Assembly: GCA_946482005.1 (NCBI GenBank)
Contig: CAMLPV010000002.1
Coordinates: 62,001-126,000 of the forward strand
From: an uncultured Gilliamella sp.
GTDB taxonomy: Bacteria; Pseudomonadota; Gammaproteobacteria; Enterobacterales; Orbaceae
DNA length: 64,000 nt
Direction of reading: 5' to 3'
The notes beneath the pieces were generated by a model. That model was not told where the DNA came from, ran no database searches, and saw only the letters and a program-made list of their open reading frames with translations. A program made the translations under genes and the position numbers. Of the stretch, positions 3,486 to 39,206 are shown piece by piece (position 1 is the first letter of the stretch; each line of letters opens with the position of its first letter).

Positions 3486-4226
3486 TTAAAAAACGTCTTT
3501 AATTATTTGTACAACACGACCAACTATATTGTACTTATCAAAATGTGCTTTAGGTACTTCTATTGTTGGATATTGTTCATTATTACATATTAAAATCCAA
3601 CTACTTAAAGTTAGGCGTATTTTTCTTAACAAGGTAAAATTTTCATATTCGATTAAATATATTGCTCCATCAACCATCTCCGTTATATCTGTGTTTATAA
3701 TAAGTCCGTTATTATTTTCAATTTCAGGAGACATTAAATCACCTTTTGCCCAATAGATAATTAATTTTTTTATATCTAAACCACGATGAGATGCCCAACC
3801 TTCCACAACTGGGTAATTCATTACAGGTGGTGTTTCTCTAATATAGCGTTGATATTGTGCTTCTTCTTTGGTTGGTAATTGTTTTTTATAAACAGGAATA
3901 CGGTAAATATTTTCATTATATACATCATCGTCATCGTCTTTTGGGTCAAATACTTCAAGTCTGTAACCCGTGGCAAGCCAGTTAAATGAAACATTACATT
4001 TCTCAGCAATTACCTCTAGACGAGTAAGTGAGGGATAGGTTTTTCCCGATAAATAATCCCTGATAACAGTTTCTGACATATCACATTTCTTCGCAAAAGC
4101 AGAAACAGATAAACCTTGCATTGAATTATATAGTCTGTCTTTGAAGGTTTTGACATTTTTATTTTTGATCATATTCATTTCTGTCTCGTTTTTCTTTTTT
4201 TCATCCGTATGGTAATTATAGTGCAT
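3486..4226 (-). CDS. Phage-type repressor with HTH and LexA/S24-like C-terminal domain, nucleophile lost
   Basis: A 246-residue two-domain regulator. Residues ~28-90 form an XRE-type helix-turn-helix (LSVSAFAKKCDMSETVIRDYL). After an acidic linker (five Asp near residue 100), residues ~135-246 resemble the S24/LexA domain of CI-type repressors. The usual GDSM catalytic motif reads GDLM at 162-165, putting Leu where the nucleophilic Ser should be; a Ser follows Met instead. The candidate dyad Lys (LLRKI, ~202) is kept. Self-cleavage is therefore doubtful. Start is uncertain: Met17 and Met19 are alternatives, and the first 16 residues are low-complexity. No phage genes lie nearby, so it appears to be a stranded or domesticated repressor. 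Confidence 0.8.
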   Translation of the reverse strand: MHYNYHTDEKKKNETEMNMIKNKNVKTFKDRLYNSMQGLSVSAFAKKCDMSETVIRDYLSGKTYPSLTRLEVIAEKCNVSFNWLATGYRLEVFDPKDDDDDVYNENIYRIPVYKKQLPTKEEAQYQRYIRETPPVMNYPVVEGWASHRGLDIKKLIIYWAKGDLMSPEIENNNGLIINTDITEMVDGAIYLIEYENFTLLRKIRLTLSSWILICNNEQYPTIEVPKAHFDKYNIVGRVVQIIKDVF

Positions 4227-35251: not shown

Positions 35252-36325
35252 ATGGCTGGAAACTCAATTGGAAAATTATTCAAAGTTACAACATTTGGAG
35301 AGTCACATGGCATTGCGCTAGGTTGTGTTGTTGATGGCGTTCCGCCTGGTCTTGCTTTGACTGAATCAGATATGCAATATGATCTTGATCGTCGTCGTCC
35401 TGGTTCATCGCGTTATACCACTCAAAGGCGTGAAGCTGACCAAATAAAAATCTTATCAGGCGTTTTTGATGGGGTCACAACGGGAACCAGTATCGGCTTA
35501 TTAATCGAAAATACCGATCAACGTTCACAAGACTACAGCCAAATTAAAGATATTTTTAGACCGAGTCATGCTGATTACACTTATCAACATAAATATGGGA
35601 TTCGCGATTACCGAGGAGGGGGGCGTTCTTCCGCGCGCGAAACTGCTATGCGAGTTGCGGCAGGTGCAATAGCAAAAAAATATTTGCATGAAAAATTAGG
35701 AATTACCATTCGTGGCTACCTAGCTCAAATGGGTGAGATAAAATGTCAATTAAAAGATTGGCAACAAGTTGAACAAAATCCATTTTTTTGTGCGGATGAA
35801 AGTAAACTTGATGAGCTAGATCAATTATTAAGATCATTAAAAAAAGAAGGCGATTCAATTGGTGCTAAAGTTTGTATTGTTGCTGAAAATGTACCTGTTG
35901 GTTTGGGTGAGCCTGTTTTTGATAGATTAGATGCTGAACTAGCTCATGCGCTCATGAGTATTAATGCCGTAAAAGGTGTAGAAATTGGTGATGGTTTTGA
36001 TGTTATCAATAAACGTGGTAGTGAAAACCGTGATGAAATAACGCCACAAGGTTTTTTATCTAATCATGCTGGTGGTATTTTGGGGGGAATTAGCTCAGGG
36101 CAAACTATTTTAGCCAGTATTGCATTAAAACCAACGCCGAGTATTGAAATTGCTGGTCAATCAATTAATATTCATGGTGAAAGTGTTGAAGTATCAACAC
36201 ATGGCAGGCATGATCCATGCGTAGGTATAAGAGCCGTGCCAATTGCTGAAGCAATGGTTGCTATTGTTTTAATGGATCACTATCTTCGTTATCGAGCTCA
36301 GTGTAATGATGTAAATGAATTATGA
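35252..36325 (+). CDS. aroC: Chorismate synthase
   Basis: Last step of the shikimate pathway: EPSP to chorismate, needing reduced FMN. The 357 residues contain the three family signatures: [18 protein letters not shown] near the start, the Arg-rich [24 protein letters not shown], and the C-terminal [17 protein letters not shown]. Complete. It overlaps yfcA by 4 bp (ATGA). It supplies the substrate of PheA encoded at 9.9 kb. Confidence 0.97.
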
Positions 36326-37074
36326 GTTATGAACTACTTTTATTATTATTTGCTATTGCTGCTTTAGCTGGATTTATCGATTCAATTGCTGGTGGTGGAG
36401 GATTATTAACCGTACCAGCATTATTGGCGGTTGGTTTACCACCAGCAAGTGCATTGGCCACCAACAAATTGCAAAGTTGTGGTGGTTCATTTTCTGCGAG
36501 CCTCTATTTTATACGGCAAAGGATGGTTGATTTAAATCAACAAAAATGGGCAATTGTAGCGGCTTTTGTCGGTTCAGCCATCGGTACTATATCGGTAATG
36601 CATATCCAAACCGATTTTTTGAAATTATTGCTGCCAATATTAACGATTAGTGTAGGGTTATATTTTTTATTATCCCCAACGATTGGTGAAAGTGATCGTA
36701 AAAGTCGTTTTTCTGTTCTCCAATTTGCTCTTATTCCTGCATTAGGTATTGGCTTTTATGATGGCTTTTTTGGACCAGGTGCCGGATCATTTTATGCTTT
36801 AGCATATATTACATTGGCAGGATTTAATCTAACCAAAGCTACCGCCCACACTAAAGTACTTAACTTCACCTCAAATTTAGCTGGTTTACTATTTTTTATT
36901 ATGGGCGGGCAAGTGGTATGGTCGATTGGTCTTGTCATGCTGGTTGGTCAGTTTATTGGAGCAAGGTTAGGCGCTAAAATGGTTATTGCTAAAGGGCGTA
37001 AATTAATAAGACCAATGCTTATTACGGTTTCTACTATTATGAGCATTAAACTGATTTATGAAAATTTCTTTTAA
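36322..37074 (+). CDS. yfcA: TSUP-family membrane protein YfcA
   Basis: A 250-residue TauE/SafE-type permease with about eight helices in two repeats. Each repeat starts with the family motif: [20 protein letters not shown] (~15-35) and [14 protein letters not shown] (~145-160). Members move sulfonates, sulfite or organic anions; the substrate of YfcA is not established. Translationally coupled to aroC by ATGA overlap, E. coli-like order with mepA missing. Confidence 0.9.
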
Positions 37075-37475: not shown

Positions 37476-37565
37476 GAGTTTATCCCTATGTGCATAGGGA
37501 ACAGACGCCACAACTACTCAATATAGTATGGGTGCGCGGTTTATCCATATGTGTATAGGGAACAA
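37476..37565 (-). CRISPR. Minimal orphan CRISPR array, type I-E-like: two 29-bp repeats and one 32-bp spacer
   Basis: Repeat A at 37476-37504, spacer at 37505-37536, repeat B at 37537-37565. Both repeats share GTTTATCC, TAGGGAACA and a TATGTG loop region, the layout of type I-E repeats (GTTTATCCCC...GGGGAAC in enterobacteria) but with an AT-rich stem. Repeat A has a perfect 7-bp stem CCCTATG-TG-CATAGGG; repeat B has two stem mismatches. Read on the minus strand repeat B ends in ATAAACCG, identical to the E. coli I-E crRNA 5' handle, so minus is the likely crRNA strand. The 29/32 geometry is exact. No cas gene lies in the window. Confidence 0.75.
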
Positions 37566-37730
37566 ACCAATTATAATCTATGGTTTTATTTTGAAAATAG
37601 TGGCATGCAAATTTCTACCAACTTTTTGCATATTTTTTGAGTAATCTTATGATTTTATAATGTCATCGGAGTTAAATATGATATAAGCCGAAAATATTTA
37701 TTTTCACAATATATATCTATTTAGAACCAT

Positions 37731-38083
37731 TGTAAAAAAGTTTGAGGTCACGCCTATGTTTTAGTAAAAAATTTTTACTAAAATCAGTCATTAACGGATA
37801 ACAATAATAAAATAACACAAAGCAGATAATTAATTTAAAAAATATGGTGTTTATCATTCTCGTTTTTAACTGTTATTCATCTTTTTGTAAAAAAGTTTGA
37901 GGTCACGCCCACGTTTCAGTAAAAAATTTTTACTAAAATCAGTTATTAACAGATAGTAATAATAAAATAATAGAAATCAGATAATTAATTTAAAAAATAT
38001 GGCGTTTATCAGTCTCGTTTTTAACTGTTATTTATTTTTTGTAAAAAAGTTTGAGGTCACGCCTACGTTTCAGTAAAAATTTA
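37731..38083 (+). repeat. ~155-bp tandem repeat, two full copies and a partial third
   Basis: Copies start at 37731, 37886 and 38040 (periods 155 and 154). Each begins TGTAAAAAAGTTTGAGGTCACG, followed by half-site GTTTTAG or GTTTCAG; the first two continue into a 9-bp palindrome (TAGTAAAAA-A-TTTTTACTA in copy 1) and ~100 bp of AT-rich DNA ending in CTCGTTTTTAACTGTTAT. By eye the two full copies are ~90% identical. The ~40-bp core is related to the single repeats at 7578 and 26948. No open frame lies in the unit. Confidence 0.85.
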
Positions 38084-38282
38084 TTAATAGTATGTTTCAT
38101 ACATTTTATCGAATCATCTTTTGATAAAGATTATCTAAAGTTTAAATCAAATGGTATTAAATTCATTGCATACAATTTTTGCTATGTAAGTTATGATGTA
38201 TAGGATATTTTAGATAAGCAAATAATTATAAAGCTTGTTTAATTTAACCTATTTTACTTTTGACGATAATCTATTTGATGTT

Positions 38283-39206
38283 ATGAAATTACAACAATTA
38301 CGTTATATTTTAGAAATTGCTCGCTCAGGTTCAATTAATGAAGCGGCTAAAAATTTATATATTACTCAACCGAGTTTATCAACCGCCGTAAAAGAGTTAG
38401 AGGCTGAATTTGGTATTGAGATTTTTGTTCGAACATCAAAAGGGGTTTCACTTTCAACTGATGGTGTAGAGTTTTTAGGGTATGCTAAACAAGTTTTAGA
38501 TCAAGCTGAACTATTAGAACAGCATTATGCTAAAAAAGAGCCCTCTAAACAGCTGTGTAGCATTTCAACTCAGCACTATGCCTTTGCGGTAAATGCATTT
38601 GTTAATTTGATTAAAAAAAATCACACAGATGAATATGAATTTACCTTAAGAGAAACCCGAACTTACGATATTATTACTGATGTAGCTAATTTACGTAGTG
38701 AAATTGGCATTTTATATATTAACGATTTTAACCAAAAGGTGATCTTGCGTTTATTGAAAGAACATCGGCTAACGTTTAACCCGTTATTTGAAGCAGATCC
38801 TCACGTATTTATCAGTACTAATCATCCTTTATCTGATATGAAATCGTTAACTTTACATGATTTAGAAGAGTATCCTTACTTATCGTTTGAACAAGGTGAG
38901 TATAATTCGTTTTATTTTTCGGAAGAGATTTTGAGTACGGAATACCATAAAAAAAGTATTCATGTTAGTGATAGAGCAACTTTGTTCAATTTACTACATG
39001 GGCTAAATGGTTATACTATAAGCACGGGAGTATTGAGCACGGATTTAAATGGCTCTGATATTTTATCTATACCGCTCAAAGTCAAAGAAAAAATCTTAGT
39101 AGGGTGGATCACATCTCAAAAAGTACAATTGAGTATGTCGGCACAAAATTATATTGAAGCACTTAAAAAGCTCATTCAAGAAGAATATGGCTTTACCCTT
39201 AAGTAA
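38283..39206 (+). CDS. LysR-type transcriptional regulator
   Basis: A 307-residue regulator. N-terminal winged helix (residues ~1-60: LRYILEIARSGSINEAAKNLYITQPSLSTAVKELE), linker helix, then a periplasmic-binding-protein-like sensor domain (~90-300). Start taken at ATG 38283; an in-frame TTG at 38235 would add 16 residues. The ligand cannot be inferred, and no divergent target gene is present: upstream lies the repeat island and downstream rpsO. The protein has an unusually acidic and Tyr-rich sensor domain (DADPHVF-like EADPHVFIS; SFEQGEYNSFYF), recalling LysR proteins of Firmicutes. Confidence 0.9.
   Translation: MKLQQLRYILEIARSGSINEAAKNLYITQPSLSTAVKELEAEFGIEIFVRTSKGVSLSTDGVEFLGYAKQVLDQAELLEQHYAKKEPSKQLCSISTQHYAFAVNAFVNLIKKNHTDEYEFTLRETRTYDIITDVANLRSEIGILYINDFNQKVILRLLKEHRLTFNPLFEADPHVFISTNHPLSDMKSLTLHDLEEYPYLSFEQGEYNSFYFSEEILSTEYHKKSIHVSDRATLFNLLHGLNGYTISTGVLSTDLNGSDILSIPLKVKEKILVGWITSQKVQLSMSAQNYIEALKKLIQEEYGFTLK

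Follow-up and report, generated by a model that had tools for sequence, protein, structure and literature searches.

A one-spacer type I-E CRISPR locus of Gilliamella is probably a worn array of the genome's own system

Introduction

Two short repeats enclosing a single spacer, with no cas gene nearby, raise the question of what such a locus is: an orphan array, the relic of a longer one, or a solo crRNA gene that serves another purpose. A locus of this kind lies between a TauE/SafE permease gene and a LysR regulator gene of Gilliamella, a bee-gut bacterium. It was first described from its letters alone, as an orphan one-spacer array that was either a relic or a solo crRNA locus (hereafter the sequence-only reading). 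The source genome, G000, is a draft assembly of 2,515,732 bases in 34 contigs and is 81% complete; the window is the whole 64 kb stretch that was analysed, G000:C2:62001-126000. The features of the locus, in window positions, are as follows.

36322..37074, plus strand: TauE/SafE family permease, flanking gene
37476..37504, minus strand: repeat A, leader-distal (terminal), CTGTTCCCTATGCACATAGGGATAAACTC; hairpin intact, 3' end changed to ACTC
37505..37536, minus strand: sole spacer, 32 bp, identical in the relative G034
37537..37565, minus strand: repeat B, leader-proximal, TTGTTCCCTATACACATATGGATAAACCG; canonical ATAAACCG end, T at position 19 breaks the stem
37566..37640, minus strand: leader, with homology to those of other Gilliamella arrays
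37570..37597, minus strand: promoter-like TTTTCA-16-TATAAT ending right before repeat B, by consensus match only
38235..39206, plus strand: LysR-type regulator, flanking gene

Repeats, spacer and leader of the locus

The geometry put forward by the sequence-only reading proved correct: on the minus strand, positions 37476-37565 hold two 29-bp type I-E repeats around a unique 32-bp spacer, with a period of 61 bp. When the I-E core pattern GTTCCCTNNNNNNNNAGGGATAAAC was searched in the 64 kb window with up to three mismatches, exactly two matches were obtained, repeats A and B themselves; in 100 shuffles of the window the mean was 0.12 matches, and none of the shuffles reached two. Repeat B ends in ATAAACCG and repeat A in the changed ATAAACTC, as described. 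RNA folding likewise agreed with an intact hairpin in repeat A (-8.5 kcal/mol, like the genus consensus repeat) and a broken stem in repeat B (-1.9 kcal/mol). In repeat family, hairpin and handle the locus is that of a type I-E array, with the hairpin weak in B and the handle altered in A. The closest named relatives of the flanking TauE gene were three Gilliamella records with 90-92% identity in the best segment, and the next record reached 67%.

The AT-rich stem that had been singled out is present, but it is not a peculiarity of this locus. The loci that we fetched contain 29 distinct arrays of at least two repeats, the window array included; this set is not a census, since many loci were chosen by resemblance to the window region, and arrays cut at locus ends look short. 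Of the 28 other arrays, 14 carry a CCCTAT..ATAGGG stem in their first repeat, none of them in G000, which makes the AT-rich stem a normal subtype within the genus. Arrays with the genus repeat CTGTTCCCTATRCACATAGGGATAAACCG occur in G009 and G007 (R = A) and in G020 (R = G). Against this sequence repeat A has two differences, at positions 28-29 (TC for CG), and repeat B also has two, at positions 1 and 19.

Overlooked in the sequence-only reading were the leader at 37566-37640, the cas operon and six further arrays. We built a profile from 26 Gilliamella leaders, of which five are from G000, leaving out the window array, its copy in G034 and two arrays that show no leader likeness. It matched the window at 37567-37637 on the minus strand with 41.8 bits (E = 7.1e-12). 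The second-best match in the window scored 9.6 bits, and the training leaders themselves score 22.8-57.7 bits. This match identifies a leader homologous to those of other arrays, as in a type I-E array. Additionally, a blast of the array region found six other places in G000, five of which cover the part adjoining repeat B. The TATAAT at 37570-37575 has counterparts directly before the first repeat in 25 of the 29 Gilliamella arrays compared. Sites of the TTTTCA-16-TATAAT type occurred 8 times in 501 bases, where 3.1 were expected, so that this site is weak evidence for a promoter.

The cas genes and sister arrays of the genome

The absence of cas genes from the window that had been noted agrees with genome-wide searches for cse1, cas1 and the cas3 core, in which matches over the cut-off were found on contig C4 only. 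There, cse1, cse2, cas7, cas5e, cas6e, cas1e and cas2e occupy L011:4083-9989, each above an NCBIfam cut-off, and cas3 lies about 10 kb from cse1 on the opposite strand (C4:74974-76092). A five-repeat array follows directly after this I-E cas set. The search for larger arrays that the sequence-only reading had proposed revealed arrays of one repeat family, with up to 14 repeats, on C1 (14 repeats), C4 (5), C5 (5) and C20 (2, 4 and 6); with the two repeats of the window, the seven arrays of G000 comprise 38 repeats and 31 spacers. Because G000 has a complete I-E cas set, cognate to the array, and six sister arrays of 2-14 repeats, the term 'orphan' does not hold, and the window locus belongs, as an outlying array, to the I-E system of G000 itself. 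The array is on contig C2 and the cas genes are on C4. Short arrays are not unique to the window, as C20:15669-15754 likewise consists of two repeats and a leader.

In its 29-bp repeat, 32-bp spacer, leader of about 75 bp, TATAAT adjoining the first repeat and ATAAACCG handle, the locus resembles the other type I-E arrays of Gilliamella; it differs from them in having only two repeats, both imperfect, with the leader-proximal stem broken. Separation of the array from cas genes is shared with degenerate or orphan CRISPR loci, such as CRISPR2 of Enterococcus (PMC4580645), and with the arrays far from their cas genes treated in a portion of PMC12814883. Unlike the orphan loci, the window array belongs to a genome that encodes matching cas genes, on another contig.

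Palindromic cores by themselves can look like repeats, and the sequence-only reading had named scattered hairpins without spacers, or a plain REP-type palindrome pair, as what would speak against an array. However, when G000 was searched with the repeat pattern at up to two mismatches, 36 of the 38 matches beyond the window belonged to the six other regular arrays; outside them were only C4:85562, which is part of a CreR-like unit, and C5:81717. This distribution and the leader profile match refute the REP palindrome. With the exact 61-bp period and the cas genes added, the probability that the locus is a palindrome pair or a chance repeat is practically negligible.

Some of the other arrays merit a remark. 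Alone among the seven arrays of G000, the six-repeat array at C20:21022-21351 (L012 about 9023) lacks a homologue of the usual leader. Near the C5 array there are stray single repeat-like sequences at C5:81717-81741 and C5:75930-75954 (the latter with three mismatches), which are possibly further remnants. Elsewhere in the genus, I-E repeat matches at up to two mismatches were found without a cse1 match in G016 (13), G018 (4), G021 (3) and G022 (2), and G016 has a cas3 core match above the cut-off despite this; these four genomes possibly carry true orphan arrays or partial systems.

The same gap in related genomes

We compared 35 genomes of the genus, G000 included. The TauE gene was present in 34 of them (G032 had no match), and the DNA downstream of it was compared in 32 relatives, with G031 left out. 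In G034 the same 90 bases were found, both repeats and the spacer being identical to those of the window. The flanks of the two genomes differ at 0 of 401 and 2 of 162 positions, and the unchanged spacer is thus no test of decay, because these genomes are too close. In G013 and G001 the gap contains this leader too, with a single repeat and no spacer. The single repeat of G013 has lost one base and ends in AATAAACTC, and its leader has lost the TATAAT; that of G001 begins with CTACTCTC and ends in AAACCA. The comparison across strains that had been suggested therefore supports a relic: one spacer in two genomes, and a leader with one damaged repeat in two others.

In 28 other relatives the gap showed no array or leader likeness (blast to 1e-4) and no repeat at up to three mismatches except one chance-like match in G028, a search that more damaged remnants would escape. 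The locus is common to four genomes only, G000, G034, G013 and G001. An 11-repeat array with a leader occupies the same gap in G004 (L144, G004:C1:1595700-1598700). We rejected it as a simple ortholog, since its orientation is opposite to that of the window array; it might conceivably represent an in-place inversion of the array at this site.

Between the leader and the lysR gene, a unit of 155 bases is repeated in tandem at window positions 37730-38086 (2.3 copies, 91% matches). Among the relatives, only a short part of this repeat was seen in G013, and more than one copy in G001.

Loss or gain of spacers

From these observations we favour, with a probability of about 0.83, the explanation that the locus is a decaying, leader-bearing type I-E array of G000's own system that has been worn to one spacer. 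The array was probably longer at one time and lost its spacers by collapse from repeat to repeat, because repeat A shares its changed ACTC end with the repeat of G013: T28 and C29 are common to both, while repeat B keeps the C and G of the genus consensus. G12 is also common to repeat A and G013, and repeat B and G001 have A; position 12 is variable in the genus. Recombination between repeats would have deleted the spacers, and in G013 and G001 it would have taken all of them, leaving the leader and one damaged repeat.

The series could also be read in the opposite direction. If the leader with a single repeat, the state of G013 and G001, were the older one, the lineage of G000 and G034 would have acquired one spacer. 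This would require one event on that branch, against separate losses in G013 and in G001; the leader is retained, and I-E integration is generally known to duplicate the leader-proximal repeat. However, repeats A and B would then be recent copies of one repeat, and repeat B would have had to change at four of 28 bases (the 29th excluded) on a single lineage if the ancestor was a G013-like repeat. At the divergence between G000 and G013 the probability of this ranges from 0.007 (5.5%, from one flank) to 0.07 (11.2%, from the flank on the leader side). Moreover, two of the four required changes, at positions 12 and 28, give B the state seen in G001. We consider such a gain unlikely. An older array whose terminal repeat was already changed needs no such coincidence, and for this reason we favour loss, even though it requires two separate events, in G013 and in G001. 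The well-preserved leader of the window counts against decay, as it could mean that the leader is still in use.

A related idea is that the tauE-lysR site serves as a lasting landing place for arrays, which dwindle there to a leader and one repeat and can grow again; it appears quite unlikely to us. If true, G000 and G034 would show how a near-empty array gains its first spacer in nature, and the array of G004, with its 11 repeats in the opposite orientation, would be a re-established one.

If decay is the correct explanation, the remaining unit may still be expressed to some extent. A pre-crRNA could start at the leader promoter, which would place the 5' end of the RNA close to repeat B. The ATAAACCG handle could come from repeat B and the 3' hairpin from repeat A, each of which Cas6e would have to release by cleaving the repeat concerned; the stem is intact in A and not in B. 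Repeat symmetry matters for Cas1-Cas2. Since the leader-proximal repeat B has a broken stem, both poor processing and poor acquisition are predicted: cutting by Cas6e and integration of new spacers should be weakened, and the locus would yield at most a weak immune crRNA. On its own the window array, being a worn array, has little significance. With the single-repeat remnants of two relatives, it forms a small natural series that may illustrate how a secondary I-E array can vanish while the cas system stays.

Origin and possible targets of the spacer

The spacer gave only short weak matches in blastn against phages and plasmids (E 9-10), and two 20-base parts of it had no match in viral contigs. 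Its first 25 bases, with up to three mismatches, were found in the 35 genus genomes only in the array copies of G000 and G034. As a positive control, we searched the viral contigs for three of the 30 remaining spacers of G000, using the first 20 bases of each, and again obtained no match, so the lack of a match for the window spacer is uninformative.

A solo regulatory crRNA of the CreR/CreA kind would steer Cascade to a chromosomal promoter by a partial match. The locus resembles these regulators, as presented in parts of PMC12737573 and PMC12948488, in having a single guide between two imperfect repeats, from which a complete guide could in principle be made, and such a guide seems to be present upstream of cse1 in G000. 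For binding by E. coli Cascade, an AAG PAM and about five seed bases suffice, position 6 being of lesser weight, according to a section of PMC5904413. We therefore scored matches preceded by AWG to spacer positions 1-12 without position 6 (11 scored positions) and compared them with 100 shuffled seeds. The best match was 6 of 11 upstream of cse1 (85 of the 100 shuffled seeds were equally good), and 5 of 11 around the locus itself (100 of 100). In the 15-kb cas stretch and across the window it rose to 8 of 11, a score reached by 44 and 96 of the 100 shuffled seeds, respectively. In contrast to the CreR/CreA regulators, no seed match above the shuffles was thus observed in the region upstream of cas or in the neighbourhood of the locus. 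In the whole genome of G000, the PAM-plus-seed pattern gave three sites with one mismatch, none of which matched the full spacer at more than 18 of 32 positions. Two are inside ORFs, and the third lies 34 bases before the end of its stretch and has no ORF of at least 300 bases within 400 bases.

The spacer is also absent in G013 and G001. A role as a solo regulatory guide is, in our judgement, very improbable, although weak off-target binding guided by the spacer may occur, since five seed bases can suffice. The two options left by the sequence-only reading are separated by these results: the relic gains support from the four-genome comparison and the broken leader-proximal stem, and the solo crRNA for another purpose is not supported, as no target above the shuffles was found upstream of cse1 or beside the locus, in contrast to the likely solo guide near cse1. 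The locus is probably an eroded remnant of an ordinary immune-memory array and not a new kind of guide-RNA gene.

The literature on Gilliamella with CRISPR and spacer includes PMC12586679. A search for Gilliamella together with 'CRISPR arrays' and 'type I-E' returned no paper in one open library, a result that is not proof that the locus or the mini-array described below is unpublished.

A CreR-like mini-array upstream of cse1

The unit near cse1 mentioned above lies outside the window.

G000:C4:85562-85586 and neighbours (L011 about 3510-3590), minus strand: CreR-like mini-array, antisense, about 500 bases upstream of cse1

In G000 its degenerate repeat (ATGTTCCTTATCTTGATAGGGATAAACCT) is separated by 23 bases from a second hairpin, GTTCCCCAC..GTGGGG. 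We examined 1.2 kb of upstream DNA per genome, cut to 503 and 703 bases by contig ends in two cases, and found the unit in 11 of the 20 Gilliamella genomes that carry cse1; the nine without it include G013. In a first test with the 10 units then known, no PAM was required, and position 6 was set aside after a mismatch there had been seen in G000. The longest seed match was at an AAG in eight of the 10; those of G000 and G020 were elsewhere, and the unbroken match of G001 was only seven bases. With AWG made a requirement, the best-matching site in the interval from the unit to cse1 was preceded by AAG in all 11 genomes, on the same strand, with 9-11 matches at the 11 positions, and shuffled seeds were equally good in 0-5 of 500 cases.

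Spacers swapped in from other genomes reached a median of 6-7 matches. Their maximum came within one match of the genome's own score in G003, G004, G008, G020, G024 and G034, and equalled or exceeded it in G000, G001, G006 and G007, whose spacers have near-identical partners. The unit of G000 has two target sites, at L011 positions 3676 and 3653, and the seed differs between most of the genomes that carry the unit. CreR, as described in sections of PMC12737573 and PMC12948488, is an RNA akin to a crRNA that directs Cascade to the cas promoter, and by its sequence the mini-array upstream of cse1 looks like such a regulator. This suggests a seemingly widespread self-regulating guide in Gilliamella, whose seed and target would change together between species.
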